From an uncultured Lachnospiraceae bacterium (GTDB taxonomy: Bacteria > Bacillota > Clostridia > Lachnospirales > Lachnospiraceae): 64,000 bases of DNA. Positions 11,136-38,641 of this stretch are shown here, in pieces. The position numbers were made by a program, and so were the translations under genes. Every line of letters begins with the position of its first letter. Within the stretch, counting starts at the first letter, position 1. The stretch is from positions 18,269 to 82,268 of the forward strand of contig CASCGD010000002.1 in assembly GCA_949132985.1 (NCBI GenBank), read 5' to 3'. The notes beneath the pieces were generated by a model that was given only the letters and a program-made list of their open reading frames with translations, was not told the origin of the DNA and made no database searches.

Positions 11136-11182
11136 CTCCTTCCCGGCAAAAATCACATATCCTGACGATTGCCGAAAAGGAG
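11136..11182 (-). terminator. Terminator of the PreA-like catabolic operon
   Basis: On the minus strand CTCCTTTTCGGCAA pairs with TTGCCGGGAAGGAG, followed by TATTTTTATG. It lies 9 bases after the stop of the last operon gene. Confidence 0.75.
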
Positions 11183-11190
11183 CGATTGTA

Positions 11191-12866: not shown

Positions 12867-12870
12867 CTTT

Positions 12871-13815: not shown

Positions 13816-13833
13816 CCTGCAATCTCCTTTCTG

Positions 13834-14751: not shown

Positions 14752-14766
14752 TTGCATCCTCCTCTT

Positions 14767-15915
14767 TCATCTCACCCTCATCGTTATCGCGCGATTGCAT
14801 ACCTGCGCGCACAGGCCGCACCCGTCGCACTTTTCCTGACGAATGACAGGTTTCTCACTCCCGCCGTCTATTGCATCGTAAATGCATACCGGATAGCATT
14901 TTTTACAGCCCACACATTTCTCATAGTCAACATCCGCGTAATACCGTTTGCTTCGGTCCGCCTTTTCAAGCGGCAGCACCTTTTTTGCCGCCACACCAAC
15001 GATGTCCTCCAGCGCTGCCACTCCCTGCCGTTCCATGTACGCCTCAAGCTGCTCCAAAATAGCCCGGATGCTGTCATATCCTTTCAAATATACCAGTGTT
15101 GCGATCTGGACATTGCCTGCCCCTGCCAGAAGATAACGGACCACATCCTCATAGTTCGTCACGCCTCCCGTGGCGCTGATGGGGCAGCTTATATGCGGAT
15201 AGCACGCGGCGATCCAGCGCATTACGGACTGCATGACCCACGGCCCTCCGTGCCCGCAAAATCCCTTATGCATGACAGGCTCCATCGTCTCGATATCGAT
15301 CTGCAGTCCCGAGGAGCGGTTAAACATCGTAAGCCAGTCTGCGCCGTCCCTCTCAAGATCCATCGCACACACAATCGGATTTGACATCTGCTGCGTCATC
15401 TTAAGTCCCACCGGAATGCCCACCGCTTTCCTGACTTCCCGAAGCGCGTTTCCCGCAACCGGATAAAATTCCACCGCTTCCCGCACAAATGCCCCTACCG
15501 GACAGGACGGAACAACTTCGATGCCATCCGCCCCTGCTTCTTCGCATTTTCCTGCATACCAGGCCCATGTATCCTCACCGGCGCAATTCAGGCTTGCTAT
15601 CACCGGAATATCCAACAGATCCTTGGCTCTCTTAATCTCGCTGCAATAGTCCTCTATGTCCCCCTCAAAAGCCTGCTCATAGGTCATAAACGTCGTTGAC
15701 TGATAACCCGGCACACCACTTCTGATGACCGACATCCTCGGAAACGGATTGTACCTGTTTACCATTTCTTCCTGAATTGATTTCAAAATAACCGCGCTAA
15801 AGCCGGCGTCCTGTGCCCGCTTACAGTGCAGGGCATCCTTCGTAGTCCCGGCAGATGCCGCGATTAAAGGATTCTTCAGCTCCATCCCCATAAAATGGGT
15901 AACCAGTTTATCCAT
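14767..15915 (-). CDS. PreA/dihydroorotate dehydrogenase-like flavoprotein with 2x[4Fe-4S]
   Basis: 382 residues. Residues 1-300 form an FMN TIM barrel of the dihydroorotate/dihydropyrimidine dehydrogenase family (VTHFMGMELKNPLIAASAG, IPVIASLNC, SCPVGAF with a candidate active-site Cys at 138, ATGGVTNYEDVVRYLLAGA). Residues 331-375 are a two-cluster ferredoxin: C334, C337, C340, C344 and C363, C366, C369, C373. I use the ATG at 15915, 5 bases after GGAGGGTGTAT. PreA normally pairs with the FAD subunit PreT, but no PreT is encoded here. The substrate is unlikely to be plain uracil given the neighbouring genes. Confidence 0.85.
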   Translation of the reverse strand: MDKLVTHFMGMELKNPLIAASAGTTKDALHCKRAQDAGFSAVILKSIQEEMVNRYNPFPRMSVIRSGVPGYQSTTFMTYEQAFEGDIEDYCSEIKRAKDLLDIPVIASLNCAGEDTWAWYAGKCEEAGADGIEVVPSCPVGAFVREAVEFYPVAGNALREVRKAVGIPVGLKMTQQMSNPIVCAMDLERDGADWLTMFNRSSGLQIDIETMEPVMHKGFCGHGGPWVMQSVMRWIAACYPHISCPISATGGVTNYEDVVRYLLAGAGNVQIATLVYLKGYDSIRAILEQLEAYMERQGVAALEDIVGVAAKKVLPLEKADRSKRYYADVDYEKCVGCKKCYPVCIYDAIDGGSEKPVIRQEKCDGCGLCAQVCNRAITMRVR

Positions 15916-15927
15916 ATACACCCTCCG

Positions 15928-16695
15928 CTAATCCTCATTCAAAATTCCCATTTCCGTAAAAATTTCCGTAATCCGTTTTCTTAAGGCCAGAAACTCCCCC
16001 GATTCCTTCACCGCCATATTCCTTGGCCTTGGCAGATCAACCGGCACGATCTCCTTCACACGTCCGGGCCTCGGCGTAAGAATCACAACCTTATCCGCCA
16101 AAAGAATCGCTTCATCTATGTCATGGGTAACAAAAAGAATTGTATTTTTCTTCTGCATCCACATTTTTTCCAAATCCACCCTCATCTGTTCCCTTGTGAG
16201 CGCATCCAACGCCCCATAGGGCTCATCCATCATAAGCAGCTGCGGCTCATGTACAAGAGCCCTGCAGATAGACACTCTCTGCTGCATTCCTCCTGACAGC
16301 TCCCAGGGATATTTATTTTCAAAGCCCTCCAGCCCCACCTGCCGGATCAGCTCCATCGCCTTTACTTTTGTAATATTTTTATCCAGATTCCGGAACTCGC
16401 CCTGAATCATGATATTGTTGAGTACCGTTCTCCACTCTAACAACAGATGATCCTGAAATACAAAGCCAACCTCCTTTACCGGCTTTGTAATCTCTTTTCC
16501 ATCCAGAAGCACTTTCCCGGAGGTTGGCTGCGTCAGTCCGGTTCCGATAAAGAGGAATGTGCTTTTCCCGCATCCCGAGGGGCCAAGCACGGTGACAAAT
16601 TCCCCGTCATTGATATCAAAATTCACATCAATCAAGGCTTCCGTATACCCGGTGAGTGTCTTATATTTCATTCCGATATGTTCAAATCTCAGCAT
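15928..16695 (-). CDS. ABC transporter ATPase, nitrate/sulfonate/pyrimidine type (SsuB/ThiZ-like)
   Basis: 255 residues. Walker A GPSGCGKST, Q-loop VFQDHLLLEWRTVLNN, signature LSGGMQQR, Walker B LLMMDEPYGALDA and THDIDEAILLAD are all present. The QQR/DEPYGALD pattern and H-region are those of the TauB/SsuB/NMT1-type importers. It energises uptake with the permease and binding protein upstream; a 63-base gap with a stem-loop separates it from the binding protein gene. Confidence 0.93.
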   Translation of the reverse strand: MLRFEHIGMKYKTLTGYTEALIDVNFDINDGEFVTVLGPSGCGKSTFLFIGTGLTQPTSGKVLLDGKEITKPVKEVGFVFQDHLLLEWRTVLNNIMIQGEFRNLDKNITKVKAMELIRQVGLEGFENKYPWELSGGMQQRVSICRALVHEPQLLMMDEPYGALDALTREQMRVDLEKMWMQKKNTILFVTHDIDEAILLADKVVILTPRPGRVKEIVPVDLPRPRNMAVKESGEFLALRKRITEIFTEMGILNED

Positions 16696-16721
16696 ATATC
16701 ACAACTCGCTTTCTTCAAGAA

Positions 16722-16745
16722 GGGCCTGCCCGTAAAAGCAGGCCC
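16722..16745 (-). promoter_or_regulatory. Intercistronic stem-loop after the binding-protein gene
   Basis: GGGCCTGC pairs with GCAGGCCC around an 8-base loop, just past the binding-protein stop. With no U-tract, it probably protects the upstream mRNA from 3' decay or lowers read-through. Confidence 0.55.
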
Positions 16746-16758
16746 GCTTTCAATCAGA

Positions 16759-17877
16759 TTATTTTGCAGGCAGTTCAGACGGAAGGCAATCGTAGGTGTA
16801 GATGTCTTCCGGCTGTATACTCTCATCCACTCCCAGGTAATGAACCAGCATATCCCGGCAGCTTTTCCAGTCATCTTCCGACACATCGCCCAAGGTCTGT
16901 GAATCCTTCGCAAATAAGCTCTCCAGCGCGACTCCAAGACTTCCCTCCGCGTTTGACCGGTCCAGGGTCGGATAGCTTTCCATAAAAATGTCAATTGCTT
17001 CCCCGGAGTCTGCCCGGCACTCATCCCACGCTTTCATGGAGGCCGCAATAAATTTCTCGATTACATCCGAATGCTCTGCGATCATCTTGTCGCTCGCCAC
17101 AATCGACAGGCCCACCGTCGCAGCGCCAAAATCCGAGTAACGCATAACATTTACTTCATGCCCCATATTCTGCAGGGTGATTGCCTGGTCATCCGCACCC
17201 GCCAGAATCACATCCACATCACCGTTCACCAGAGACGTAACCTTTGCGCCGGCATCCATCGTGACATAATTGAGGGTGTCATCATCAATATCATTTGCCG
17301 CTTCGAGGGCCGCAAACAAATTCGAGGGCGCATCTCCTGTCGTAATGCCGATTTTCTTTCCCTCCAGGTCCTTAGGCTCCTCAATGCCCGAATCCTTCAT
17401 GCTGATCGCCGCAAAACCATTGACTGCATAGATCGGGCATACGATCTTAAGCGGAATTTCATTTGCAACCGCTGAGGCCACAGAGGCTGAATCCACCAAT
17501 CCCAGCTCATCGTCCCCTGTTCCCACAAGCTTGGCTGTTGTCCCGGAGCCTGTACCCTCGCCAATCGTCACATCCAGGCCGGCCTCCCTGTAATAGCCCT
17601 TTTCCAGAGCATAGTAAAAGGGCGCATGCAGGCCTGCAGCCGTATAGTTCAGCCGAAAACTTATGGGAACCAGCTCCTTTGCTTCGCTTTCCTCCCCGCT
17701 CTCTGCTCCCGCATCAGCTTTTACTTCCGGTTCTTCTCCCTTTTCATCTTCTCCTGCCTCGCTTTGTGCTCCCGTGTCCGTCTTTTCTGCCGTATCCTCC
17801 TTCCCGGAGCCCGCGCACCCTATCAAAGACATCATCATCACAGTTACAAGTGCTGCCGCCAAAACCTTTCTCTTCAT
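16759..17877 (-). CDS. NMT1/THI5-like substrate-binding lipoprotein
   Basis: 372 residues with a lipoprotein signal (SLIGC, Cys about 21) and an acidic, Glu/Ala/Gly-rich spacer (22-70). The binding domain begins LVPISFRLNYTAAGLHAPFYYALEKGYYREAGLDVTIGEGTGSG, closely the NMT1/THI5/SsuA fold pattern used for thiamine-pyrimidine precursors, riboflavin, pyrimidines, sulfonates and aromatic acids. LNYTAAGLHAPFYYA is nearest the pyrimidine/riboflavin (ThiY/RibY) branch in my memory, which fits a heterocyclic ligand, but this is inference. It binds the substrate outside the cell for the permease. Confidence 0.88.
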   Translation of the reverse strand: MKRKVLAAALVTVMMMSLIGCAGSGKEDTAEKTDTGAQSEAGEDEKGEEPEVKADAGAESGEESEAKELVPISFRLNYTAAGLHAPFYYALEKGYYREAGLDVTIGEGTGSGTTAKLVGTGDDELGLVDSASVASAVANEIPLKIVCPIYAVNGFAAISMKDSGIEEPKDLEGKKIGITTGDAPSNLFAALEAANDIDDDTLNYVTMDAGAKVTSLVNGDVDVILAGADDQAITLQNMGHEVNVMRYSDFGAATVGLSIVASDKMIAEHSDVIEKFIAASMKAWDECRADSGEAIDIFMESYPTLDRSNAEGSLGVALESLFAKDSQTLGDVSEDDWKSCRDMLVHYLGVDESIQPEDIYTYDCLPSELPAK

Positions 17878-17909
17878 ATCCTGTTTCCTCCTTCATTGTT
17901 TTTATTAAA

Positions 17910-17926
17910 CTGCCCGGTAAGGGCAG
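17910..17926 (-). promoter_or_regulatory. Stem-loop between permease and binding-protein genes
   Basis: CTGCCC and GGGCAG arms with a 5-base loop, followed on the minus strand by TTTAATAAAAAC. It is weak as a terminator; it may be an attenuator or mRNA processing site. Confidence 0.45.
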
Positions 17927-17948
17927 CAAGAAACCTGCCGCATCTCCC

Positions 17949-18791
17949 TTATCTTGCTTTTTTATCCGTCACCCGCTGGCTTACATGCCATGGAATCAGT
18001 TTCCGCTCTGCCAGCTCCACAATCTCGAAAAATACCATTCCCATCAAACACAGTACAATCAAAATTGCAAAAAGCAGTTTCGTATTGATATCTCCGTTCG
18101 CCCGCAAAAGCAAATACCCCAGCCCGCTGTCAGATCCGAGAAATTCCGCAACCACGGCTCCCACCGTCGCCATGGAAATCGAGGTTTTAAGCCCCGAAAA
18201 GATACTCGGCAGCGCGTTTGGCAGTTTTATTTTCCAGTAAAATTTCCATTCAGATTCACTCATCGTCCTTGCCATATAATAAAGCCTGCCATTTAATGAT
18301 TTCAGCCCGGCAACCGTATCCATGAGCAGCGGGAAAAACGACAGCAGAAAGACCATCAGGATCTTTGGCATAGAACCAAACCCGAACCACACAACGAACA
18401 ACGGCCCGATCGCGACCTTCGGAATCAGCTGCAAAAATACCATAAATGGATATAACGTTTTCTCAAATACCCTGGAATAGGAAATCAGCGTAGCAATCGG
18501 TATACTGATAATAACTGTCGCCCCAAATCCAACACCAATTTCGTACAAAGTTGTCAACATATTTGATTTAATTGCGCTCCAATATTGTACAATTGCCAAA
18601 ACCGACTCGCTCGGCGATGGGAGAATATAACTTGGAATTTCAAAAAACCTTACCAGAATTTCCCAGAAAACGATTACTCCACCGACGCTAAAAATGCTCG
18701 GCATGGATTCCTTTAAACTGTTCAGAAATTTCAGCCATCTGATCTGCCGGGATTTTTGTCCGCCATCCGCCCGTGCCTTTTCATTTTTCAT
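17949..18791 (-). CDS. ABC transporter permease (SsuC/TauC family)
   Basis: 280 residues with about six hydrophobic spans (residues about 33-50, 83-110, 118-150, 165-180, 215-235, 245-265). The conserved cytoplasmic loop is seen as YYMARTMSESEWKFYWKIKLPNALPSIFSGLK. It pairs with the SsuB-like ATPase and NMT1-like binding protein. Its start lies inside the end of the lacI gene (11-base overlap), so regulator and transporter are co-transcribed. Confidence 0.92.
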   Translation of the reverse strand: MKNEKARADGGQKSRQIRWLKFLNSLKESMPSIFSVGGVIVFWEILVRFFEIPSYILPSPSESVLAIVQYWSAIKSNMLTTLYEIGVGFGATVIISIPIATLISYSRVFEKTLYPFMVFLQLIPKVAIGPLFVVWFGFGSMPKILMVFLLSFFPLLMDTVAGLKSLNGRLYYMARTMSESEWKFYWKIKLPNALPSIFSGLKTSISMATVGAVVAEFLGSDSGLGYLLLRANGDINTKLLFAILIVLCLMGMVFFEIVELAERKLIPWHVSQRVTDKKAR

Positions 18792-19803
18792 AATGATCCT
18801 CCTTCGAATAAACAGATTTTACCGAATTTCCTTCTATCACCGCACTTTTTAAAACGCGCAGCCTGGGCCTCATTTCCCTGTCCTTTAAACGCGACAGCAT
18901 CATCTCTCCGATGCAGTTTCCGATCTCCTCCTGCATTTCCTTGGCATGCGTGATCTGAGGCTCGATCAGGCCCTGAAAATCAAGCGTGCCAAAGCCAATG
19001 AGCGAAACATCCTCCGAAATACGGATTTTCATTTCCTTCGCCTTATTCAAAATGCCCTGCGTAATGGTCGCACTTCCGCTCACAACGGCAGTCGGCGGAT
19101 GATCCCTTTTCATCAGAAGCTCAAATGCCTCCTGTCCGAATTGCTTTGAAAAGGTACCATACATAATGTTCCCGTTTATCGCCATTTTATCATGGTCAAA
19201 AAACGCGCGCATGTAACCGTTATATCGGTCAAAGTTCGTGCTGAGCTTCTTCTCGCCGCTGATCATGGCAATATTCGTGTGACCCCTCTCGATCAGATAA
19301 ACGACCGCATCGTACATGGATTTTTCCTTATCCACATAAACCGTGTCATATACGTGATTTAAAGTACTCCGGTCAAACGCCACCACTGCGCAGTCCACGC
19401 GCTCAAGCAGCTCCTCTATGTTCGTGGATACCGGGCTGATAATCAAACCGTCCACGCATTTTGATGTCATCATCTCGATACATTCTTTTTCCTTTTTCTC
19501 ATCGTTGTCTGTGCTTGCCATCAAAAGTATATAGCCCTCGGCACGGATCATTTTTTCCACGATTCTTGTCACTCCGATCACAAAGGGATCCGAAATATCC
19601 GAAGCGATCAGGCCTATGGTTTTCGTCACGCTGTTTTTCAATCCCTTTGCAAGCTGATTCGGCTTATAGCCCAGCTTCTTAATCGCCGCCCTCACCCGCA
19701 GCTTCATCTCGTCATTAATATTCGGCATACCGTTTACAACACGTGAAACCGTTGCCACGGAGACATCCGCCTCTCTTGCCACATCTTTAATCGTTACACT
19801 CAT
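18781..19803 (-). CDS. LacI-family regulator of the PreA-like operon
   Basis: 340 residues. Helix-turn-helix at 4-25 (TIKDVAREADVSVATVSRVV) and hinge NQLAKGLKNSVT, then a periplasmic-binding-like sensor domain (TIGLIASDISDPFVIGVTRIV, VDGLIISPVS, SLIGFGTLDFQGLIEPQITH). It is the first gene of its own operon behind a consensus promoter. A matching palindrome lies between promoter and start, so auto-repression and repression of the downstream pathway are likely. The effector is expected to be the transported compound or a metabolite. Confidence 0.92.
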   Translation of the reverse strand: MSVTIKDVAREADVSVATVSRVVNGMPNINDEMKLRVRAAIKKLGYKPNQLAKGLKNSVTKTIGLIASDISDPFVIGVTRIVEKMIRAEGYILLMASTDNDEKKEKECIEMMTSKCVDGLIISPVSTNIEELLERVDCAVVAFDRSTLNHVYDTVYVDKEKSMYDAVVYLIERGHTNIAMISGEKKLSTNFDRYNGYMRAFFDHDKMAINGNIMYGTFSKQFGQEAFELLMKRDHPPTAVVSGSATITQGILNKAKEMKIRISEDVSLIGFGTLDFQGLIEPQITHAKEMQEEIGNCIGEMMLSRLKDREMRPRLRVLKSAVIEGNSVKSVYSKEDHYEK

Positions 19804-25799: not shown

Positions 25800-27275
25800 T
25801 CACTTTGTGAGTGCGATATCATAAAATTCCACCCGGGCATCCTGAGCGATCACGCCCAGCTCATACTCCGGCTTCGCATAGATGCGGTAGGTGAAGGCCA
25901 CCTGGTCACCGATAAACGCCTCCACCATATCATGATCCACCACGATCTTGACGTCAATTGGCGTTCCCTCCTCTATGGGGAAGGTCTTCTCGCAGACCCT
26001 CACCCCGTCCGGCCCCGGCACCGTCGCATCCGGCACCGCCTGGCAGGACTGCTCCCAGAACGGGTCCACGCCCATCGGAAGGCTAAGCAAAGATGCACGC
26101 TGCATCGCCACGTCAAATTCCAGAAGCAGGCAGCCGCTGGCTTCTTTGTCTGATTTCAGAAGGATTCCGAAGTGGTCAAAAATTTCCCGCGGCATGATCT
26201 TGCAGCGGAACAAAAAGCGCTCCTCCTGATGGTCCAGAAAGCCGTAGGTGCAGGTACCCACCGAGTCAAGCTCGATGCTCCTTCCGCCAAAGCGCGATGC
26301 CTTTCCCAGCACCGGCACGTAATCCCAGTCCACCGGCTCACAAAATTCTTTTACATATTCCTCCGGCAGACGCACATCCAGCTCTCCGTCCGCTGTCGCC
26401 ACCACCTCATGGGGGATGCAGAATGTCCCGCCCCAGTACCACTCTCCGGTATCGCAGGATTCTGCCCGATCGTGTGCCCATCCGAAATAAAACCGCCGCC
26501 CTTTATCATCCTTCATGGACTTCGCCGCGTAAAACCGTCTGCCACCGATGCCGTCCTTTTTCGGCTTGCGCCACGGCCCGAAGGGAGATTTGGACACCCG
26601 GTAAATCGTATTTACAAACTCCGAAAACCGTGAGTAGGACAGATACCAGTTATCGCCCTCCTTGTACATTTCCGGGCATTCCGGGCAGTTTGTATGCCCC
26701 GGCGCGTAGACCGGTCCGTAATATTCCCAGCTCCCCAGATCCTTCGAGCGGTATAAGACCACGCACCCTCTCCGCGTAACCGGCATATCCAGCTTTCTGG
26801 CCGAAATCAGAATCCAGTAGCACGCGTCCTCTTCATTATAAAATACATACGGATCTCTCCAGTCCAGCGACTCATAAAGCTCCGTCATCGGAAGAATCAC
26901 CGGATTTGCCGGGTCCTTCGTCCACGTAATCCCATCATCGCTGGTAGCATGGCAGATGGTCTGCTGATATTTCGCCGGCAGGCAGTAGCCAGTATAAAAA
27001 ATATGATACCGCCCCTCTCCGTAGATCACAGAGCCGGTCCACACGCCGGAGGCATCCGGCTCCTCCCCCTCTCCGGGATAAAGCGCCGTAGGCAGCTCCG
27101 TCCAATGCACCAGATCCTCCGATACGCAATGGCTCCATGTAGTCCGGAGCCTTGCCGGATACACCGTCGTCCCAGGCGGCGACGTCAATGAAAAAATATG
27201 ATACTTCCCGTCATGATAAAATGGAATCGCGTCTCCGGTAGAGTCCGCATAAGACATTTTTCGAAAGATATCCAT
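25800..27275 (-). CDS. GH32-like (clan GH-J) glycosidase, cytosolic
   Basis: 491 residues, no signal peptide. Five-blade propeller motifs: GDAIPFYHDGKYHIF (candidate nucleophile Asp 15 in place of the usual NDPNG), GVWTGSVI, WRDPYVF (RDP motif, 140-142), and CPECPEMY with the expected acid/base Glu at 199; a C-terminal beta-sandwich follows (about 340-490). Such enzymes cleave beta-fructosides or related sugars. It follows an RbsABC-type importer, so it probably acts on an imported short oligosaccharide or glycoside. The altered nucleophile motif makes sucrose or inulin specificity uncertain. Confidence 0.8.
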   Translation of the reverse strand: MDIFRKMSYADSTGDAIPFYHDGKYHIFSLTSPPGTTVYPARLRTTWSHCVSEDLVHWTELPTALYPGEGEEPDASGVWTGSVIYGEGRYHIFYTGYCLPAKYQQTICHATSDDGITWTKDPANPVILPMTELYESLDWRDPYVFYNEEDACYWILISARKLDMPVTRRGCVVLYRSKDLGSWEYYGPVYAPGHTNCPECPEMYKEGDNWYLSYSRFSEFVNTIYRVSKSPFGPWRKPKKDGIGGRRFYAAKSMKDDKGRRFYFGWAHDRAESCDTGEWYWGGTFCIPHEVVATADGELDVRLPEEYVKEFCEPVDWDYVPVLGKASRFGGRSIELDSVGTCTYGFLDHQEERFLFRCKIMPREIFDHFGILLKSDKEASGCLLLEFDVAMQRASLLSLPMGVDPFWEQSCQAVPDATVPGPDGVRVCEKTFPIEEGTPIDVKIVVDHDMVEAFIGDQVAFTYRIYAKPEYELGVIAQDARVEFYDIALTK

Positions 27276-27416: not shown

Positions 27417-28412
27417 TCAGCGCTTCTTTTTCAGCAGCGCGAGTCTGTCTTTCTGGCTGTCCAGCAAGACCGCGCATGCGATGATCAGTCCCTTCACAAT
27501 TGACTGCCAGTAAGAGCTGACGCCGATCAGGTTCAGTCCGTTGGAAATCACACCGATAACCATCGCTCCGATGACCGTTCCGCTGATTCGGCCCTTTCCT
27601 CCCGACATGGAGGTTCCGCCGAGCACGCACGCCGCAATCGCATCCAGCTCATAACCGTCTCCCACAGAGGGCTGCCCGGAATACATGCGCGAGCAGAGCA
27701 CCAGCCCCGCAAAGGCAGACAGGAGGCCGCAGAGCGTAAATACAATGATCTCGATCTTTTTGATGGGCACGCCCGAGAGCCTTGCCGCCTCCCGGTTTCC
27801 GCCGATCGCGTACACATAGGTGCCGAATTTTGTCCGGCCCAGCACAAAGCTGATCAAAAGAATCAAAATGACCATATACACCACCGGAAGCGGAATCACA
27901 TTAAACAGATATCCCATACCGATCGCCGCGAAAAAATCATCGTTGATTCTGGTGGACTGTCCCCCTGTATACACATAGGCGATTCCGTTACAGATGTTCA
28001 TCATGGCCATTGTAATAATGAAGGCAGGCACCCGGAAGGTGGATACGATAAATCCGTCGATGAAGCCCGCCAGAACGCCGAGCACCAGGCCGCCCACAAT
28101 CGCCACGCCCATGGGCATGCCCTGATTTACGATAAATCCAACGGTCAGCGTGCCGCTCATGGCCACAATCGCGCCCACGGACAGATCGATGTGTCCCAGA
28201 ATGATGATCAGCGTCATGCCCAGGGCTATGTAGGTGTTGATGGAAATCTGACGCAGAACAGAGATGATATTGCTCGCCGTCAGAAATTTATCCGTGGAAA
28301 ACGTCACAACCGCACATATGATGACAAGCACGCCTAAGATGCCTATATTATTTTTGAACACCGCCACAAACGGATTGGCCGTGCCCACTGCTTTACTGTT
28401 TTTCTGATTCAT
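27417..28412 (-). CDS. Ribose-type ABC sugar permease (RbsC family)
   Basis: 331 residues, about nine hydrophobic spans. Family blocks: LGMTLIIILGHIDLSVGAIVAMSG, DGFIVSTFRVPAFIITMAMMNI, YAIGGNREAARLSGVPIKKI, AACVLGGTSMSGGKGRISGT. Forms the membrane channel of a monosaccharide or small glycoside importer. It overlaps the ATPase gene by 4 bases (ATGA). Confidence 0.93.
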   Translation of the reverse strand: MNQKNSKAVGTANPFVAVFKNNIGILGVLVIICAVVTFSTDKFLTASNIISVLRQISINTYIALGMTLIIILGHIDLSVGAIVAMSGTLTVGFIVNQGMPMGVAIVGGLVLGVLAGFIDGFIVSTFRVPAFIITMAMMNICNGIAYVYTGGQSTRINDDFFAAIGMGYLFNVIPLPVVYMVILILLISFVLGRTKFGTYVYAIGGNREAARLSGVPIKKIEIIVFTLCGLLSAFAGLVLCSRMYSGQPSVGDGYELDAIAACVLGGTSMSGGKGRISGTVIGAMVIGVISNGLNLIGVSSYWQSIVKGLIIACAVLLDSQKDRLALLKKKR

Positions 28413-29908
28413 GCTTCCACTCCTCCTGCCGCATATTTCATAATCTCCTCCTGGCTTAGCTCATCCTTTGAGAGAAATCCCGTCAGCCTGCCCTCACGGA
28501 CCACGCAGACGTTATCGCACATATTGATAATTTCCGGAAGCTCGCTGGATACCATGATAATTGCAATTCCTTCCTTCGCAAGCTCATTGATGACTGAATA
28601 AAGCTCAAACTTTGCATTTACGTCCACACCTCTGGTCGGCTCATCTAAAATCAGCACGTCCGGCTTCGTCGCCAGCCATTTCCCTAAAACCACCTTCTGC
28701 TGGTTTCCTCCGGAAAGGCTTCCCGCCTCTATTTCCGAGGACGCCGCCTTTATGCGCAGCTTTTCAAAATATGAATCGATCACCGTTTTTTTCTTCTTCT
28801 CGCTGATCGCGATTCCGTTCATATAAAACCGAAGCGACGCCAGTGTCAGGTTAAATGCCACGCTGTTTCCAAGCACAAGCCCCTGCTTCTTCCGGTCCTC
28901 CGGAACGAGGGCAATGCCTGCTTTGATCGCCTGCATCGGATTTTCAAACGATACCTTTTTCCCGTTTAAAACCACCTCGCCGGACTGGTACGGCCTTGCC
29001 CCGAAAATACTTTCCATGATCTCGCTGCGGCCTGCGCCCACGAGTCCCGCAAAGCCGAGGATTTCACCCTTGCGCACACAAAAGCTGATATGCTCAAATG
29101 TCCCTTCACACGTGAGGTCCTTCACCTCCATCGCGGTTTCTGCCTCCGAGAGATCCTTGAAATCCCTCGCGTAAAAGCTCTCTAAGTCACGGCCCACCAT
29201 CATGGCAACCAGCTCGTTCGCATTCGTCTCGGACGTTTTGCGTGTACCTACATATGCGCCGTCACGGATCACCGTAACACGGTCCGAAATGCAAAACAGC
29301 TCCTCCATCCGGTGCGAAATATAGATGATGCTGACCTTCTTCTCCTTTAACCGGGCAATGATCTCAAACAGCTGCTCCACCTCCTCGTTTGAAAGCGAGG
29401 AAGTCGGCTCATCCATCACGATGATCCTGCCGTCAAAGGACACCGCTTTTACGATCTCCACCATCTGCTGCTGCGCAATGGTCAGATCCTCCACCATGGC
29501 ATCCGCCCGGATGTTCACACCGAGAGAAGCGATCATTTCTGTCGCCCTCCGGTTTGTCTCCGCCATATCCACCGTCCCGTGCTTTATGATCTCCCTTCCG
29601 AGAAAAAGATTCTGCGCCACGGTCAGATACGGGACAAGAACGATTTCCTGATGGATGATACCGATCCCGTTTCCCCTCGCCTCCGTGACGTTTCGCACCT
29701 TTACTTCTCTGCCTTCTATGCGGATCGTTCCGCAGTCAGGCTGATAAATACCTCCCAACACTTTAATCAGCGTGGACTTCCCGGCGCCGTTTTCTCCCAA
29801 CAGCGCATGGACCTCCCCCAATTCCAGTGAAAAATCAATTCCGTCCAGGGCATAAAAGCCGGAGAAGCTCTTTTTGATTCCTGTCATTTCCAGAACTGTC
29901 TGTCCCAT
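28409..29908 (-). CDS. Ribose-type ABC sugar importer, double ATPase (RbsA family)
   Basis: 499 residues with two ABC cassettes. The first has GENGAGKST, a modified signature (LTIAQQQMVEI) and IIVMDEPTSSLS; the second has GLVGAGRSE, LSGGNQQK and VLILDEPTRGVD. This is the standard RbsA/MglA layout. It energises uptake by RbsC-like and RbsB-like partners on either side. Confidence 0.95.
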   Translation of the reverse strand: MGQTVLEMTGIKKSFSGFYALDGIDFSLELGEVHALLGENGAGKSTLIKVLGGIYQPDCGTIRIEGREVKVRNVTEARGNGIGIIHQEIVLVPYLTVAQNLFLGREIIKHGTVDMAETNRRATEMIASLGVNIRADAMVEDLTIAQQQMVEIVKAVSFDGRIIVMDEPTSSLSNEEVEQLFEIIARLKEKKVSIIYISHRMEELFCISDRVTVIRDGAYVGTRKTSETNANELVAMMVGRDLESFYARDFKDLSEAETAMEVKDLTCEGTFEHISFCVRKGEILGFAGLVGAGRSEIMESIFGARPYQSGEVVLNGKKVSFENPMQAIKAGIALVPEDRKKQGLVLGNSVAFNLTLASLRFYMNGIAISEKKKKTVIDSYFEKLRIKAASSEIEAGSLSGGNQQKVVLGKWLATKPDVLILDEPTRGVDVNAKFELYSVINELAKEGIAIIMVSSELPEIINMCDNVCVVREGRLTGFLSKDELSQEEIMKYAAGGVEA

Positions 29909-29966: not shown

Positions 29967-31037
29967 TTACTGCCAGTCATTGATGGTTTCTTCTGCCTCA
30001 TCCGCAAGTACCAGATGAGAATCCAGATACACCTTCTTTTCTCCATCTAAAGCCTCTTGGCCATTTAAAAATTTCACAGCCGCATTGTATGCATATTCCG
30101 CAATCTGCAGAGGAACCTGTGCCGCAACCGCCGAGAACTCTCCGTCAAGCAGCGCCTGCTTTCCGTCCGGGGAAGCATCGATACTGTACACGCCGATCTC
30201 ACCTGTCTTGTTTGCCGCCTTGACTGCTGCCGCAGCGCCCAATGCGGACGGGTCGTTGATGCAGAAAAATGCCTGCAGATCCGGATTCGCAATGATGATA
30301 TCCTCCGCCAGTCCGAGGGAAGCATCTAAAGCCGCTTCGCCGTCCTGCTGTGCAACGATCTCAAATTTGTCTTTATTGTCTCCAAGTCCTTCCATGAAGC
30401 CGTTGACACGATCCACGCAGCTCTCGTTGGACGGGAAATCCAAAACCGCAATCTGTGCGCCATCCGGATAATCCTTTGCCATCTGCTCACCCACAAGCTG
30501 TCCGGCCATGTATGCGTTGGTTCCTACGAACTGTGTCACAAAGCTCTCAATATCCTCCTCGATGACCGCCGTATCCACGTTAAAAATCGGAATGCCCGCT
30601 TCCTTGATCTCTGCAAGTCCGGCAGTAATTCCCGCGGAATCAACCGGGATAATGAAAACCGCATCATATCCGCTGTTTGCCACGTCTGAGAGCTGACTTA
30701 ACTGGGTGTTCAGATCGTAGTCCGGGTCCAGACAGGTATAGGAAATACCGTTTGCCTCACACAGCTCACTGAATTTGGAATCCATAGAGCTCTGGAACGT
30801 ATTGTTCAGCGTGTTCGTGCAGAATGCAAAAGACAGATCGGAAGCAGCCGCGTCGCCTTCACCTTCCTCTTCACCTGCTTCCTCTTTCGGCTCCTCCTGT
30901 GCATCATCCGTCTTTTTGTCATCCGTCGCTTCCGTCTCCGGAGTCTCTGCGCCTGTGTCGCTGCTGTCAGATCCGCATCCAACCAGCATTCCTGCCGTCA
31001 TACAAAAACAAATTGCTAATGCCAATAACTTTTTCAT
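29967..31037 (-). CDS. Sugar-binding lipoprotein (RbsB family)
   Basis: 356 residues from the ATG at 31037. Lipobox LVGC, a long Glu/Asp/Thr-rich linker to about residue 75, then a Peripla_BP_4 domain (LSFAFCTNTLNNTFQSSMDSKF, YDAVFIIPVDSAGITAG, IPIFNVDTAV, AFFCINDPSALGAAAAVKA, IGVYSIDASPDGKQALLDGEF). Captures the sugar at the cell surface. It is first gene of the transporter operon, behind a promoter overlapped by a TTACGTAA palindrome. Confidence 0.93.
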   Translation of the reverse strand: MKKLLALAICFCMTAGMLVGCGSDSSDTGAETPETEATDDKKTDDAQEEPKEEAGEEEGEGDAAASDLSFAFCTNTLNNTFQSSMDSKFSELCEANGISYTCLDPDYDLNTQLSQLSDVANSGYDAVFIIPVDSAGITAGLAEIKEAGIPIFNVDTAVIEEDIESFVTQFVGTNAYMAGQLVGEQMAKDYPDGAQIAVLDFPSNESCVDRVNGFMEGLGDNKDKFEIVAQQDGEAALDASLGLAEDIIIANPDLQAFFCINDPSALGAAAAVKAANKTGEIGVYSIDASPDGKQALLDGEFSAVAAQVPLQIAEYAYNAAVKFLNGQEALDGEKKVYLDSHLVLADEAEETINDWQ

Positions 31038-31103
31038 GATGTACCTCCACATATTATTTAATTAACAAATCAGTAACGGATGTCTGCGGCAAATAAACCG
31101 GCT

Positions 31104-31280
31104 TTTACGTAAATTTACAAATTCTGCCAGCGCATCTGTTTCTTTGTTACGTAAATATTAATATTTCTTTCCGATTTTGTCAATATGGCAGACTGAATTT
31201 CCAGTTTTTCATCATTTTTCACAATCTTTTCTTCCGGTTTTTTATCAAATTAACAGCTTATTTCCACATTTTACGTAAAA
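31104..31280. promoter_or_regulatory. Three TTACGTAA operator candidates at the rbsB promoter
   Basis: Palindromes at 31104-31113 (TTTACGTAAA), 31147-31154 (TTACGTAA) and 31269-31280 (TTTTACGTAAAA). The same motif stands at 33571-33582, before the two-sensor lacI gene. The central CG and position over the promoter fit a LacI-family repressor. Confidence 0.7.
31155..31183 (-). promoter_or_regulatory. Promoter of the rbsB-rbsA-rbsC-GH32 operon
   Basis: On the minus strand TTGACA (31178-31183), 17 bases, TAATAT (31155-31160). The palindrome at 31147-31154 abuts the -10 on its downstream side. Confidence 0.75.
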
Positions 31281-31356: not shown

Positions 31357-31490
31357 GAATGCGCTCTGCGCATTCTTCGCGCCCGAGCGGTGCCGTTCAC
31401 GGCTAATTTCACCTCCGCGAGGTGCGCATCCTGCCCGGAGGGCTTTTTGTGATATAGGAAATCCGAAGGAATTTCCTATATCACAAAAAA
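31357..31490. repeat. Run of five hairpins between the two-sensor lacI gene and rbsB
   Basis: In order: GAATGCGC/GCGCATTC (31357-31375), GCCG/CGGC (31392-31403), CACCTC/GAGGTG (31410-31424), GCCC/GGGC followed by TTTTT (31433-31443), and a long stem at 31444-31490 (TTGTGATATAGGAAAT with its complement). No coding sequence is visible. The rest of 31281-31356 is AT-rich DNA without a clear feature. Confidence 0.7.
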
Positions 31491-31512
31491 AGAATCCTGT
31501 TTCCAGGATTCT
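31491..31512 (-). terminator. Terminator of the two-sensor lacI gene
   Basis: AGAATCCTG pairs with CAGGATTCT around a GAAA loop, followed on the minus strand by seven T. Confidence 0.9.
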
Positions 31513-31534
31513 TCATCGCGTCTCATAAATCTGT

Positions 31535-33556
31535 TCAACGTATACCCAATTTATCCGGCGTTCCGTATAAATTCCCGGGCATGGATTCATGAAAAATCTC
31601 CTTCCATGCACGCCGAAGCTCCTTGGCCTCCACGATATACGGCTGGACGCCCACATATTTTGGAACCGCATCGCCCACCAGCGACTTTGCCGCCACCAGC
31701 GCCGCCGCCTGTCCCTGCTCATAGGGGCGCTGGGTGCTCATGCCCTTCACGATTCCCGCCTCCATATAACCGGCAATCTCATGGTCCAGATCCGTCGTAA
31801 AAACCGCGATATCCTCCCGCCCCAGCGCTTTTAACGCCTGGATGGCCAGCAGTGCCGGACGGTCCCAGCTCACATAGAGCGCCTGTATTTCGGGGTGCGA
31901 AAGAATCATATCCCGGCACACCTGACCGGCGTTCTCGATCTGGCCGAAACCGCGGCTGGTCACGATCTCCACATTGGGATAATTGTCCTTCAAAATTTTT
32001 TCCGCTGCCATATCCCTTGCCCGGGTTCCGTAAAAGGTCGCCCCGTGAATGATAAAGCCCACCTCCCCCTTTTCACATCCCTGAAAATATTCACCGATCA
32101 TGCGCCCCGCATTCGTCCCGTTCTCCCACTCGTTCACGGACACGCAGGCCACGTAGCTGTTCTTTCCGATATTTTCCGGGACGTTGCTGATAAATACGAG
32201 CTTTGACACCTTTGAGAGCTCCTGAAACTTTTCCGCCGTCTTCGCGTCGTCTGTCGGGACCGCGATCACCGCATCCGGCTTCTGGAGCAGAATGCCTTCC
32301 AGCTGAGCGTTTTGCAGCGCAGAGTCAAAATGCGCGTCCGTCACCGAAATGACGTCGATTCCATAGCGCTCCAGCTCGTCCCGGATACCCTTTTCGTGCA
32401 GCTCCGCCCAGGCAGTCCCCGTGTAGTGAAAGGAGATCGCCACACGGTAATGTCCGTTGCGCAGGCGCTTTCTTTCCTCCCGGCTAAGCACAATCCAGTC
32501 AGGCGGAACCGCCGTGTCTCCAAACGGGCCGTTATCCAGCATCTTCACCGACTTTCGTATGTTCAGACGGATCTCCGCATAGCCGTTTGCTGTCACAACT
32601 CTGCCTGTCTGCATCTTCTCGAACAGCATTCTTGCCGCCCGCACACTTAAGTCCTCCACATCCCGCTCCAGCGTCGTGAGCGGCGGATCCATCAGCTCCA
32701 TCCATTTTTCATCGCCGAATCCCACCACGGACAGATCATCCGGGCAGCGGACTCCCATGTTTCGCATCGCCTTCAAAAGGTGCAGCGTCAGACGGTTCCC
32801 GCCGGCGATCACTGCCGTGGGCATCACTCTTTTTAATGCCCTCTGAATGCATTGCTGGCATCCGTCCTCCTCCATGCTCAGATCCACATCCACGATGCTG
32901 GCGTCATTTTCATTGATATTGATTTTTTTCAGCGCCTCCAGATACCCTCTGGTACGCTCCTCCTTTGTGGTGCTCTCTGATTTTTCCCGGAGAAAAAGCA
33001 GGTTCTTATGCCCGCACTCCAGCAGATAAGACGTTCCTTTATAAAGCGCTGTCCGGTCCTCAAATACTACCGAGTCGATCCCTTTCCCCAAAATATTTCT
33101 TTCCATACACACGAAAGGCATCCCCGACGCGATCAGATTTTTATAATTTTCCGCCACATCGCTCACCGGAACATAGAGTATCCCGGCAACAGTCTTATCG
33201 ATCAGAAAGCTGTCCAGCAGCTGCTTTTCCTCCTGCAGATTATCTTCCGTAGTCGCGACTACAAACTGATAGCCATACTGATTGATTCTCCGTTTCAGCA
33301 CGGCAATGATATCGCAGAACAATGCACTGGCAAGATTTGGAAAGACGCCGACAACCGTAGAATTCCTTCCAATCTTCAGCTTTTTCTCTTTCCTGGCCAC
33401 CTTCTCACTGTAGCCGGTTTCCTCGATAATGTCCCTGACCTTTTTCTCCAGCTCCGGACTCACATACCTGGTTCGGTTGATGACATGGGAAACCGTGGCA
33501 ATCGACACGCCCGCCCGTTTCGCAATGTCTTTGATCGTTACTTTTTCCTTTCCCAT
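31535..33556 (-). CDS. Two-sensor LacI-family regulator (HTH + two periplasmic-binding domains)
   Basis: 673 residues, twice the usual LacI length. HTH at 5-30 (VTIKDIAKRAGVSIATVSHVINR). A first sensor domain spans about 66-338 (STVVGVFPNLASALFCDIIAVLKRR, SVVGFGDEKWMELMDPPLTTLERDV, the normal LacI ending). A second, RbsB-like domain spans about 369-642 (YRVAISFHYTGTAWAELHEKGIRDEL, PDAVIAVPTDDAKTAEKF, GFIIHGATFYGTRARDMAAEK, IAVFTTDLDHEIAGYMEAG). It probably controls the downstream rbsB-GH32 operon and itself through TTACGTAA sites, integrating two ligands. Confidence 0.9.
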   Translation of the reverse strand: MGKEKVTIKDIAKRAGVSIATVSHVINRTRYVSPELEKKVRDIIEETGYSEKVARKEKKLKIGRNSTVVGVFPNLASALFCDIIAVLKRRINQYGYQFVVATTEDNLQEEKQLLDSFLIDKTVAGILYVPVSDVAENYKNLIASGMPFVCMERNILGKGIDSVVFEDRTALYKGTSYLLECGHKNLLFLREKSESTTKEERTRGYLEALKKININENDASIVDVDLSMEEDGCQQCIQRALKRVMPTAVIAGGNRLTLHLLKAMRNMGVRCPDDLSVVGFGDEKWMELMDPPLTTLERDVEDLSVRAARMLFEKMQTGRVVTANGYAEIRLNIRKSVKMLDNGPFGDTAVPPDWIVLSREERKRLRNGHYRVAISFHYTGTAWAELHEKGIRDELERYGIDVISVTDAHFDSALQNAQLEGILLQKPDAVIAVPTDDAKTAEKFQELSKVSKLVFISNVPENIGKNSYVACVSVNEWENGTNAGRMIGEYFQGCEKGEVGFIIHGATFYGTRARDMAAEKILKDNYPNVEIVTSRGFGQIENAGQVCRDMILSHPEIQALYVSWDRPALLAIQALKALGREDIAVFTTDLDHEIAGYMEAGIVKGMSTQRPYEQGQAAALVAAKSLVGDAVPKYVGVQPYIVEAKELRRAWKEIFHESMPGNLYGTPDKLGIR

Positions 33557-33570
33557 TCCGACATACTCTC

Positions 33571-33582
33571 TTTTACGTAAAT
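33571..33582. promoter_or_regulatory. TTTTACGTAAAT operator before the two-sensor lacI gene
   Basis: Palindrome 15 bases upstream of the start codon, the same motif as at the rbsB promoter, implying autoregulation. Confidence 0.65.
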
Positions 33583-33657
33583 TTTAATAATACGTTATCA
33601 TATTTTTCGTAAAAAAGCAATCAGATCGGTCATTGCAAAAAAAAGCGCTCAAAACCC

Positions 33658-33804
33658 CTAATCATCCTCTAATCCATCCTGTGCATCCTTTAAAAGCTCG
33701 TCTATGATTCTTTTAACTTCTTCTTTATTTCCTTCCGAATCCGCTTTTTTAAGAGCTTTTAGCTGTCTTATAAGCTGCCGTAAATAACTTTTGAATACTG
33801 ACAT
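33658..33804 (-). CDS. Small 48-residue protein, unknown
   Basis: The protein begins MSVFKSYLRQLIRQLKALKK and ends DAQDGLEDD. It has GGAGG followed by 8 bases and an ATG at 33804. Residues 1-20 would form a basic amphipathic helix, and the remainder (KEEVKRIIDELLKDAQDGLEDD) an acidic helix. There is no signal or membrane segment. The strong ribosome site, sensible composition and position between two regulators support a real gene. I do not recognise a family. Confidence 0.65.
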   Translation of the reverse strand: MSVFKSYLRQLIRQLKALKKADSEGNKEEVKRIIDELLKDAQDGLEDD

Positions 33805-33932
33805 ATGAAAAACCTCCGTTCCTTTCTTTTTGATATCTTCATTATACCTGATTTCACGGCATTTTCAACACCTGCTATACTTTAAACCCCACAAGAACTG
33901 CAGCCGCGCAATCCGCACCATCCGCAAAGCGA

Positions 33933-35170: not shown

Positions 35171-38100
35171 ATGTACGAAAAAATGTTTGAGCCAATTAAA
35201 ATCCGTGGTCTGGAAATGAAAAACCGGGTCGTCTATTCCGCAGCGGGCACAAAATTTTCCGGGAAACAGGGAAGCTTTGTGACGGACAAGCTGATCGATT
35301 ATCACGTAGCCAGGGTAAAGGGCGGCAGCGGACTGAACATCGTTGAGGTATCCAGTGTACATACGCCCAGCGCGCCGCGGAATTTCCTGTCCATCTCCGA
35401 GGACATGTATGTGCCGGGCTTAAAAAAGCTGGTGGACGCTATCCATGAAGCGGGCGGCAAAGCAGCCATCCAGCTCTGGCAGGGCGGCATGGCGGTGGGC
35501 AGCGACCGCACGGCGCAGATTCTGGTGTCAAGCGACACACCCGTCAGCGCCGAGATGACGCTTCCGGCGATCACCCTTGATCAGATGAAGGAGGTCGTGG
35601 ACTGCTTCGGAAAGGCCGCAAAACGGGCAAGCGACTGCGGCTTTGACGCCGTGGAGTTCCACTGCGCGCACAATTATCTCCCTCACTCCTTCTTAAGCGG
35701 CGGCATGAACCGCAGAACGGACGAGTACGGCGGGAGCCTTGAGAACCGGGCGAAGTTCCCGCTGGAATGCATCCGGGCGATCCGCGCGAATCTGCGGGAG
35801 GACATGCCGCTGTTCATGCGCATCGACGCTCAGGATGATTACCTCGAAAACGGCATGACCATCGACGACACCATCACCTTCTGCAACTGGGCGAAGGAGG
35901 CGGGTGTGGACGTGCTCGATGTCTCCAGAGGAAACTTCATCTCCGCAGCGATCAAATATGAGGTTCCCTCCATCGATACACCCCAGGGCTTCAACATCGA
36001 CAATGCCGCAAAAATCCGCCAGGGCACAGGCATGCTCACCATCGGCGTGGGCCGCATCAACACCCCCGACATCGCGGAAAAGGCTCTGGCGGAGGACAAG
36101 GTGGACATGGTGGTCATGTGCAGGGCACAGTACGTTGACCCCGAGTTCTTAAACAAGGTAAAGGACGGCCGTCTGGATGAGATCACCTACTGTATCGGCT
36201 GTGACCAGGGCTGCTACGACGGCTTTGAAAATATGGACGTGCCCCATGTCACCTGTCTGTTAAACCCCGCCATCGGAAGGGAAAAGGAGTGCGCGCTCAT
36301 TCCGGCCAAAAAGTCTGAGACGGTTCTGATCGCCGGAGGCGGCATCGCAGGTCTGAAAGCTGCAATCACTTTAAAGCAGCGGGGACACAATCCTGTGATA
36401 ATGGAAGCAAAGGACACCCTCGGCGGCCAGTTCGTGCTGGCCGGAAAGGCGCCGCGCAAGAAGGAAATGGAGGACGCGGTTGTTCTGATGGCAAAGCAGG
36501 CGAAGAAGCTTGGCGTGGACATCCGTCTGAACACAAAGGTTACCGCAGAAACAATTCAGCAGATGAAGCCGCACACCTTCATAAACGCCATCGGCGCGGC
36601 TCCCCTTATTCCCGACATTCCGGGAACGGATCTGGCGTGCGTCGTCAACTCCCATGAAGTGCTCGCGGGCACAAAGGAGCTTACCGGAAACATTGTCGTC
36701 ATCGGCGGCGGCCTGGTGGGCACGGAGACGGCAGAATTTGCGGCTGCAAGGGGATGTAAGGTAACGATTCTCGAAATGCTCCCGCAAATCGCATCGGATC
36801 TTGGCTCCGTCCGCAAAACCTGCGTGCTGGAAAATGTCTACGCGGCAGGCATTACCCCGGTATGCGAGGCAACGGTTAAGGAGATACAGCCGGGAAAGGT
36901 CATCGCCGAAAAGGGCGGAGAAACCCTCACCTTTGACTGTGATTTCGCAGTGCTTGCCATCGGCTCGAAGGCGCGTTGCGGAAAAGAGCTGGAGGCGGCC
37001 TGCCGCGAAAACGGCGTCGCATACTTTTGCGTCGGCGATGCCTGCGGCGCAAGACGCGCGCTGGTCGCGGTCCGCGAGGCCTTCGACGTGGCGCTCACCT
37101 TTGACCGCGAGGACGTGCGAAGAGATGCCTTAAAGCCGAAAAAACGAGTATTTCTGACCGGAGCATCCGGCACTATGGGACAGGAGACGTTAACGCAGCT
37201 TCTGAACCGTTCCTCCCGCTTCAACGTGCGCGCCATCGTACGCGATTCCGAGAAGAACCGCGCGCTGATGAAAAAATTTGCCTGCCCGGCTCTTGAAATC
37301 GTCTGGGGCGACATGGCGGATTACGACACGATTTTGAGATGCGTCACCGGCTCCGACTATGTGCTCCACATCGGCGCGATGGTCTCCCCCATGGCGGACG
37401 ATTTTCCGAAAGAGACACTCTACACCAATATCGGCTCTACACTGAACATCATCAAGGCCATCAAGGAGCAGGAGGACCCGGACAAGGTGCACTTCGCCTA
37501 TGTAGGAACCGTGGCCATGACCGGACACCGGGCGGACCCGATTCAGTTCGGGCGTGTCGGCGACCCCATCTGCCCGTCGATCTTTGACTACTATGCGCTC
37601 AGCAAGGTATTCTCGGAGATGGCGCTGTTTGACAGCGGCTTAAAGTACTGGGTCAGCATCCGTCAGACCGGACAGCACCCCAGCAACCAGGCCGCGGCCA
37701 GTCTGCCGATTATCACGCACCAGCCGCCCAACAACGTGCTCGAGTGGGCGACCTCCATCGAATCCGGCATCTGCATGGCTAATCTGTGCGAGGACTGGGT
37801 ACCGAAAAGCTTTTGGAGAAAAGCGTACAATTTAAGCAGCGGCGAGGGCTACCGCCTGACGACGTGGGAGCTGATGGATATCAATCTGGGCGCATTCGGT
37901 ATCGGATTAAAGGATATTCAGGATCCGAAGCATATGGCAAAATACAACTTCCACGGCCAATATTATACAGATTCCAAAGCTCTGGACGATATACTCCACT
38001 TCCGCTGCATTCCGGCTGAGCAGTACTGGGAAGGTGTGCGCGAGGAGATGCGCAGAATGAAGAGAAATCCGATGATCGCCGCCATGTTCCCCACGGCTGA

Positions 38101-38641
38101 GCAGATGTTTGAAAACAACAAGCAGATCGGGCACAAACGCATGGGTACTTACTGGATGCTCGAGAACAACGAGGAGGACTGGATAAAAGCATTCTACGGC
38201 TCAAAGGAGCAGGCCGAATCCATCCCTGACTGGGATGCATATGAGCTGTACCACCCGAGTGAGGAAGAGACATTCCTGAATCACGGATACGACGAGTCAA
38301 AGGCTCTGGACGAGCTGACGCTGGAGGATTTGCAGGGCATCGCAAAATTCAGAGGCGGCGAATGTCTGGCGACGGACATCCCGGATATCTACACGCCCAT
38401 CCGCTGGAAGAGTGCAGAAGGCTACGAGTTTGACATGAGCGTCAACGCTGTTGTGCAAGGTGGACACTGGGCACCGGAATGCTTAAAGGAGGCGTGGACC
38501 TACGGCTCGCAGGCAAAGTACAACCCGTTCCTCGGGCAGGTTTGGTGGCCGATTCATCCCGAGACGGATGACTATTCCATCAAAATGGCGTACAGCGCCT
38601 ATGATATCTGCAACGAATTAAAGGAGAAGCTCGGGCTGTAA
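35171..38641 (+). CDS. Three-part fusion: old yellow enzyme, FAD/NAD(P) oxidoreductase, SDR/epimerase
   Basis: 1156 residues. Residues 1-335: FMN TIM barrel of the 2-enoate reductase/BaiCD group (AAIQLWQGGMAVG, VEFHCAHNYLPHSFLS, TDEYGGSLENRAKFPLE). C341, C344, C348 and C362 are the [4Fe-4S] ligands. Residues 383-650: FAD and NAD(P)H Rossmann domains (VLIAGGGIAGLKAA, VVIGGGLVGTETAE). Residues 657-1156: extended SDR (VFLTGASGTMGQ, catalytic Y808-x3-K812). The first two parts reduce activated C=C bonds in 2-enoates, bile-acid or steroid enones; the SDR should act on a hydroxyl/ketone of the same compound. GGGAGGG ribosome site. Substrate unknown; 'NADH' versus 'NADPH' unresolved. Confidence 0.93.
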   Translation: MYEKMFEPIKIRGLEMKNRVVYSAAGTKFSGKQGSFVTDKLIDYHVARVKGGSGLNIVEVSSVHTPSAPRNFLSISEDMYVPGLKKLVDAIHEAGGKAAIQLWQGGMAVGSDRTAQILVSSDTPVSAEMTLPAITLDQMKEVVDCFGKAAKRASDCGFDAVEFHCAHNYLPHSFLSGGMNRRTDEYGGSLENRAKFPLECIRAIRANLREDMPLFMRIDAQDDYLENGMTIDDTITFCNWAKEAGVDVLDVSRGNFISAAIKYEVPSIDTPQGFNIDNAAKIRQGTGMLTIGVGRINTPDIAEKALAEDKVDMVVMCRAQYVDPEFLNKVKDGRLDEITYCIGCDQGCYDGFENMDVPHVTCLLNPAIGREKECALIPAKKSETVLIAGGGIAGLKAAITLKQRGHNPVIMEAKDTLGGQFVLAGKAPRKKEMEDAVVLMAKQAKKLGVDIRLNTKVTAETIQQMKPHTFINAIGAAPLIPDIPGTDLACVVNSHEVLAGTKELTGNIVVIGGGLVGTETAEFAAARGCKVTILEMLPQIASDLGSVRKTCVLENVYAAGITPVCEATVKEIQPGKVIAEKGGETLTFDCDFAVLAIGSKARCGKELEAACRENGVAYFCVGDACGARRALVAVREAFDVALTFDREDVRRDALKPKKRVFLTGASGTMGQETLTQLLNRSSRFNVRAIVRDSEKNRALMKKFACPALEIVWGDMADYDTILRCVTGSDYVLHIGAMVSPMADDFPKETLYTNIGSTLNIIKAIKEQEDPDKVHFAYVGTVAMTGHRADPIQFGRVGDPICPSIFDYYALSKVFSEMALFDSGLKYWVSIRQTGQHPSNQAAASLPIITHQPPNNVLEWATSIESGICMANLCEDWVPKSFWRKAYNLSSGEGYRLTTWELMDINLGAFGIGLKDIQDPKHMAKYNFHGQYYTDSKALDDILHFRCIPAEQYWEGVREEMRRMKRNPMIAAMFPTAEQMFENNKQIGHKRMGTYWMLENNEEDWIKAFYGSKEQAESIPDWDAYELYHPSEEETFLNHGYDESKALDELTLEDLQGIAKFRGGECLATDIPDIYTPIRWKSAEGYEFDMSVNAVVQGGHWAPECLKEAWTYGSQAKYNPFLGQVWWPIHPETDDYSIKMAYSAYDICNELKEKLGL

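Follow-up and report, generated by a model that had tools for sequence, protein, structure and literature searches.

A LacI-type regulator fused to an RbsB-type binding domain beside an ABC transporter/GH32 operon in an uncultured Lachnospiraceae bacterium

Results

The window analyzed here, the whole 64,000-nucleotide stretch of DNA, comes from a host described as a gut-type bacterium and contains, at positions 31535-33556 of the minus strand, an open reading frame with an ATG start that encodes a regulator of 673 amino acids (aa). The adjacent operon lies on the same strand and encodes an RbsB-like substrate-binding lipoprotein (29967-31052, with 31037 the more likely start; PF13407, 155 bits) whose nearest structures are ribose-type, an RbsA-type ABC ATPase (28409-29908) and an RbsC-type ABC permease (27417-28412), both recognized by Pfam and NCBIfam, and a GH32-type, beta-fructosidase-like enzyme with no apparent signal peptide (25800-27275; PF00251, 143 bits). 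The last of these matched the Thermotoga maritima beta-fructosidase 1uyp (E value of 4.6e-29), with the RDP and EC motifs aligned. A promoter-like TTGACA-17-TAATAT sequence for the transporter operon is present on the minus strand at 31155-31183, recognized by consensus match only, and a terminator-like hairpin with a T run lies 3' of the regulator gene (31489-31514, minus strand), also a consensus match of a kind that was no commoner in the region than in shuffled sequence.

Several other features of the window were noted. A short minus-strand open reading frame of about 48 aa (33659-33805; MSVFKSYLRQLIRQLKALKKADSEGN...), with a ribosome-binding-like GGAGG, sits between a good promoter-like sequence at 33868-33841 and the regulator gene. 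Adjoining the regulator on the plus strand, positions 35171-38641 encode an unusual fusion of 1156 aa in which residues 2-643 pass the NCBIfam cutoff for BaiCD, a bile acid Fe-S flavoenzyme (1029 bits, above the cutoff of 825), and residues 660-822 form an NAD-dependent epimerase/dehydratase-type domain. Farther away, an operon-like minus-strand run at 10149-19803 carries TIM-barrel isomerase, Gfo/Idh/MocA, DHDPS-type, DHO-dehydrogenase/ferredoxin, and NMT1/SBP genes and adjoins an ordinary single-sensor LacI regulator (18781-19803).

The 673-aa protein opens with a LacI-type helix-turn-helix at aa 7-50 (33407-33538, minus strand; PF00356, 60.3 bits against a cutoff of 27), in which I19, A20, and H24 occupy the recognition positions of LacI Y17, Q18, and R22. 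Directly C-terminal to it is a core that itself resembles a binding protein (aa 68-337 by PF13377/PF00532 and by Foldseek matches to PurR and CcpA), with Peripla_BP_3 (PF13377) at aa 176-337 (123 bits) and Peripla_BP_1 (PF00532) at aa 68-322; we delimit this LacI-type sensor and dimer core, in which the canonical sugar-pocket residues are substituted, at aa 64-337 (32546-33367, minus strand). A junction at aa 338-368 (32453-32545, minus strand), where the blastp alignment to stand-alone lgd-type binding proteins begins, leads into a complete RbsB-type (Peripla_BP_4) domain at aa 369-645 (31622-32452, minus strand), hereafter the C-domain, which we propose to be the main sensor. Its Pfam match (PF13407, aa 372-628) scored 150 bits against a cutoff of 35 and covered positions 1-256 of the 258-position profile, indicating a complete two-lobe fold.

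The initial annotation had described this protein as a complete LacI repressor followed by a second full binding domain of RbsB type at aa 369-642, and Pfam, AlphaFold2, and Foldseek concur on that architecture: HTH_LacI, Peripla_BP_3, and Peripla_BP_4 were all recovered in the Pfam search, and NCBIfam similarity of RbsB type (aa 390-642) falls inside the boundaries first proposed. An AlphaFold2 model built with 10 orthologues reached a mean pLDDT of 82.8, with values across aa 370-640 that mostly exceed 85 and in many blocks exceed 90, although the overall pTM of 0.54 leaves the relative placement of the domains uncertain. Foldseek matched the regulator both to full-length LacI, PurR, CcpA, and RbsR chains and to complete binding proteins, with a TM score of 0.84 to 5hsg (normalised by its 285 residues; rmsd of 2.9) and of 0.85 to 6sw4, such that the C-terminal fold is complete. 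An incomplete or decayed C-domain is ruled out by these two analyses together with the conservation of its pocket. The domain carries no signal peptide or lipobox for export and sits inside a cytosolic DNA-binding protein; this RbsB-type domain very probably binds a ligand.

Approximately 20 full-length relatives with 33 to 70% identity were found in Lachnospiraceae and other Clostridia, and nine GTDB contigs encode the same architecture at 55 to 70% identity; one of these relatives (L017) lacks its N terminus because the contig starts inside the gene. A search of 299 Lachnospiraceae genomes recovered fused relatives in five more genomes, of which one carries a tandem pair and another has two copies lying apart, and four clostridial genomes of further families and orders (G406, G369, G775, and G964) encode them as well. 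Across 399 phylum-wide genomes, only stand-alone binding proteins were recovered besides the fusion in the window itself. A frameshift or assembly artefact is excluded by the ~20 relatives in other genomes, which include independent GTDB contigs and further genera and families. In the tandem pair (L049, 8246-10228 and 10474-12549), two fused regulators share a cluster, and downstream of them are a binding protein related to the lgd type and a Zn-dehydrogenase.

We also searched 26 genomes for other fusions of this kind, considering long frames with strong PF13407 matches, and identified no other LacI and Peripla_BP_4 fusion among the matches listed, of which three candidates were checked. One of these is an MCP-like protein from a different genus, in which a methyl-accepting-chemotaxis-like signalling region is followed by a C-terminal Peripla_BP_4 domain (L099, 1256-3295, minus strand), and the other two are lipoproteins that each consist of a tandem pair of binding-protein domains (L100, 608-2482, and L101, 918-3014), the two halves of the former being almost identical. 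Both component families of the fused regulator are already known, as is the reuse of RbsB-type domains in regulators, and the open-access literature yielded no description of two-sensor LacI proteins or of fusions between substrate-binding proteins and LacI.

The fused regulators occur in two kinds of gene neighbourhood. In the window and in most close relatives, the regulator adjoins genes for an RbsB-like lipoprotein, RbsA, RbsC, and a GH32-type enzyme, in many cases joined by a PfkB kinase whose fructokinase match falls below the cutoff. At four other loci (L051, L052, L085, and L087) it lies among Gfo/Idh/MocA dehydrogenases, TIM-barrel epimerase-like enzymes, and a different binding protein; one of the dehydrogenases, in L052, scored above the NCBIfam cutoff for levoglucosan dehydrogenase (NF052479, 727 bits against a cutoff of 650). 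Similar genes make up the lgd locus of Bacillus smithii, in which four enzymes convert levoglucosan to glucose and which has the same neighbours, namely a LacI regulator, a substrate-binding protein, an ATPase, permeases, and lgdA-C (PMC7676230). In one genome (L083 and L084) the regulator and an lgd-type cluster are on different contigs. The genome that the window comes from contains no levoglucosan dehydrogenase scoring above the cutoff, so the C-domain ligand in the GH32 operon may differ from levoglucosan. The same genome encodes a stand-alone binding protein with 25% identity to the C-domain (L056, 6695-7912, contig C56), accompanied by ABC genes and an FGGY (xylulokinase-type) kinase.

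By comparing palindromes across the intergenic regions we identified a candidate operator, TTTACGTAAA, which is palindromic with a central CG and is predicted to be an operator from its sequence and its phylogenetic footprint. One exact copy lies just upstream of the regulator start codon (33572-33581), consistent with autoregulation, with an operator-like site bearing one mismatch, TTTTCGTAAA, at 33604-33613. Two further exact copies flank the transporter promoter, one upstream (31270-31279) and one in the transporter leader (31104-31113), at about 120 bp upstream and 40 bp downstream of the expected transcript start, and between them a one-mismatch candidate at 31146-31155, GTTACGTAAA on the plus strand, abuts the -10 box of the best promoter-like sequence preceding the binding-protein gene. 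Shuffled sequence predicts 0.02 exact copies in the window, where there are 3; these are also the only copies in the 3.17-Mb assembly, in which a reversed control pattern has ten occurrences. In the GH32-type subclade, each of the 15 loci examined (the window included) has 1 to 4 copies near the regulator or transporter promoter, and no copy was found in the lgd-subclade and control loci. Over 13 genomes, 34 of 56 copies were at the locus (31 of 53 in the twelve genomes other than the window's own). Open-access literature mentioning TTTACGTAAA together with LacI concerned unrelated matter only.

A different palindrome, TTTGCGCAAA, marks the lgd subclade and occurs at lgd promoters or the regulator at three loci (L051, L052, and L082), while a fourth (L084) has half-and-half sites, TTTGCGTAAA; none was found at L087. 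The individual TTTGCGCAAA and hybrid sites are at 2282 and 2442 in L051, 3873, 4151, and 13860 in L052, 199 in L082, and 6092 and 6215 in L084. These sites lie at lgd-type genes in genomes with a fused regulator of the other subclade than the window's, and they point to control of levoglucosan-type operons by the fused regulators.

The candidate operators are separated by 157-168, 124-126, 82-83, or 30-34 bp, and adjacent spacings are in phase at a helical repeat of 10.4-10.5 bp (R = 0.70; p of ~0.0004 versus jittered spacings), although this statistic draws on related loci, making the helical phase suggestive only. Such phased sites would suit DNA looping, and one could imagine that the C-domain serves mainly as an oligomerisation module in place of the LacI tetramer helix, with ligand binding secondary or absent. 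We regard this as very unlikely, as cooperative dimers would be served by phased sites just as well, and the ligand pocket, for which such a module would have no need, is among the most conserved parts of the C-domain.

A phylogenetic analysis of 52 sequences, including the C-domains of 21 fused regulators, placed these 21 C-domains in one clade (support of 100/100) joined to binding proteins of lgd type, a label that the stand-alone proteins receive from gene neighbourhood only. C-domains and lgd-type proteins together were separated from the binding proteins of their own operons with support of 100/99, and the binding proteins of the GH32 operons formed a distinct clade. Whether the C-domains are sister to the lgd-type proteins or nested within them made no significant difference (p-AU of 0.21). 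Regulator aa 338-660 aligned by blastp at 38% with the stand-alone lgd-type binding protein of L052 (5041-6201), and because the alignment to the lgd protein starts at residue 338, the N-terminal segment of the mature protein was part of what was captured. The C-domain could also have been a copy of the transporter's own binding protein (29967-31052). That origin does not hold: the two fall in different clades, their grouping was rejected (p-AU of 0.001), and their pocket residues differ.

Descent from a transporter partner protein could also suggest that the C-domain couples regulation to transport, either by docking on the transporter from the cytosolic side or by sequestering sugar that has been imported. 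This we consider highly improbable, as binding proteins are generally known to engage the permease from outside the cell, the binding protein of this operon is not the ancestor of the C-domain, and no observation supports docking.

At two loci (L089 and L090), a normal single-sensor LacI gene is followed directly, on the same strand, by a gene for an lgd-type binding protein, and in the B. smithii lgd locus the LacI regulator and binding protein are consecutive (b and c) in the figure legend (PMC7676230). This unfused gene order is an arrangement that could give rise to the fusion. A single origin would fit the LacI halves of the fused regulators, and the simplest history that the sequences suggest would be one fusion with a captured transporter protein followed by redeployment to the GH32 operon.

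To assess which pocket senses, we compared both halves of the protein with ligand contacts of RbsB and LacI, whose contact lists and reference sequences we took from general knowledge. The RbsB contacts correspond in the regulator to T381, W383, A384, S457, N458, R514, F537/G538, W564, T588, D589, and Q609. W383, R514, W564, and Q609 are retained in 21 of 21 fused proteins, and a single one of them lacks D589; the changes from RbsB F15 to W383, R141 to R514, D215 to D589, and Q235 to Q609 are identities or conservative, and RbsB N13, D89, and N190 are replaced in the window by T, S, and W. Among GH32-type proteins, conservation of this pocket was 0.91 versus a domain mean of 0.65, a level reached by 0.08% of random position sets. 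Positions 381, 384, and 457 differ between GH32-type and lgd-type neighbourhoods, which would fit a changed specificity.

The pocket of the LacI-type half differs from the canonical one, of which the contacts (R197, N246, D274, and an aromatic residue at 220) are common though not universal in the LacI/GalR family. In the window the R at R197 is kept, but N246, D274, and W220 have become G253, G281, and L226. An aromatic residue at the W220 position was found in 0 of 20 fused proteins versus 19 of 25 single-domain LacI proteins, D at the D274 position in 1 of 20 versus 20 of 25, and N or S at the N246 position in 5 of 20 (all lgd-type) versus 22 of 25. The loss of these canonical contacts favours one working sensor. 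Alternatively, the protein may be a two-input repressor whose LacI-type and C-terminal pockets bind different ligands with AND or OR logic, such as an oligosaccharide brought in by import and a metabolite from inside the cell. Both folds are complete by Foldseek, R201 is mostly kept, E152 and W285 are invariant in the ten closest orthologues, and the LacI pocket positions are slightly more conserved than the LacI-sensor mean in GH32-type proteins (0.62 versus 0.45), such that an altered pocket rather than decay only is possible, and it may still work. Against this, the N246, D274, and W220 contacts are replaced, the R197 position accepts R, K, C, or W, and the LacI sensor has changed more quickly than the C-domain (mean pairwise identity of 57 versus 71%). 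We therefore think two inputs unlikely, if less so than the other alternatives, and a single transplanted sensor appears likelier than the integration of two sugars.

Discussion

Our analysis describes a regulator that probably acts as an autoregulated local repressor of the adjacent ABC transporter/GH32 operon, consisting of a LacI protein fused to a leaderless lgd-type binding protein and sensing through its C-domain. The LacI part would provide DNA binding and, as knowledge of the family suggests, the dimer core, and it would occupy the TTTACGTAAA palindromes, both those near the transporter promoter and the one at the start codon of its own gene. The cytosolic C-domain may then close on a sugar that has been imported, or on the first product of its breakdown, and the closed state would be relayed to the LacI core, most likely freeing the DNA and thereby inducing the operon. 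A ligand resembling an anhydrosugar is suggested by the descent from lgd-type proteins, and a fructoside by the GH32 enzyme in the operon. More tentatively, the LacI core may be a sugar-blind chassis for DNA binding and dimerisation while the captured binding protein senses, and sensor and operator may have moved together as a cassette between unrelated catabolic operons.

Known systems resemble this regulator in part. Like LacI/GalR members (PurR, CcpA, RbsR, and LacI), with which its HTH and core align end to end (E value of ~1e-35 for PurR), it has a palindromic candidate operator with a central CG at its own promoter and at the target operon; unlike these proteins, which stop after the sensor at about 340 aa, it adds a complete binding-protein domain and lacks the canonical inducer contacts. 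With lgd binding proteins of RbsB type the C-domain shares the core pocket (W/N/R/W/D/Q) and the N-terminal extension, but it is cytosolic, lacks a signal peptide, and is fused to a regulator, and at the position of RbsB D89 the fused proteins have S, T, N, or G, where the secreted proteins mostly have D or E. In Bacteroides BT1754, an RbsB-type domain is reused as the sensor of a regulator of fructan use. We take PDB entry 2x7x, a "sensor protein" listed as a weak match (E value of 8e-5), to be this hybrid two-component sensor; BT1754 is a membrane histidine kinase with a periplasmic sensor, whereas the window protein would be a cytosolic one-component repressor. The LacI regulator and binding protein of B. 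smithii are encoded by two genes (PMC7676230), whereas in the window they form one fused protein at a GH32 operon.

A common ancestry of LacI cores and ABC binding proteins has long been supposed. In the fused regulators, a modern binding protein appears to have been joined again to a LacI regulator after the two had diverged, with the usual contacts of the old pocket apparently lost. If this is true, the fused regulators would represent a natural experiment in sensor replacement and a direct route to chimeric biosensors, and for a sugar system of Clostridia the ligand, the operator, and the regulon would become testable from sequence. Should the cassette interpretation also be true, the same receptor fold would sense sugars both outside the cell, for transport, and inside it, for transcription.
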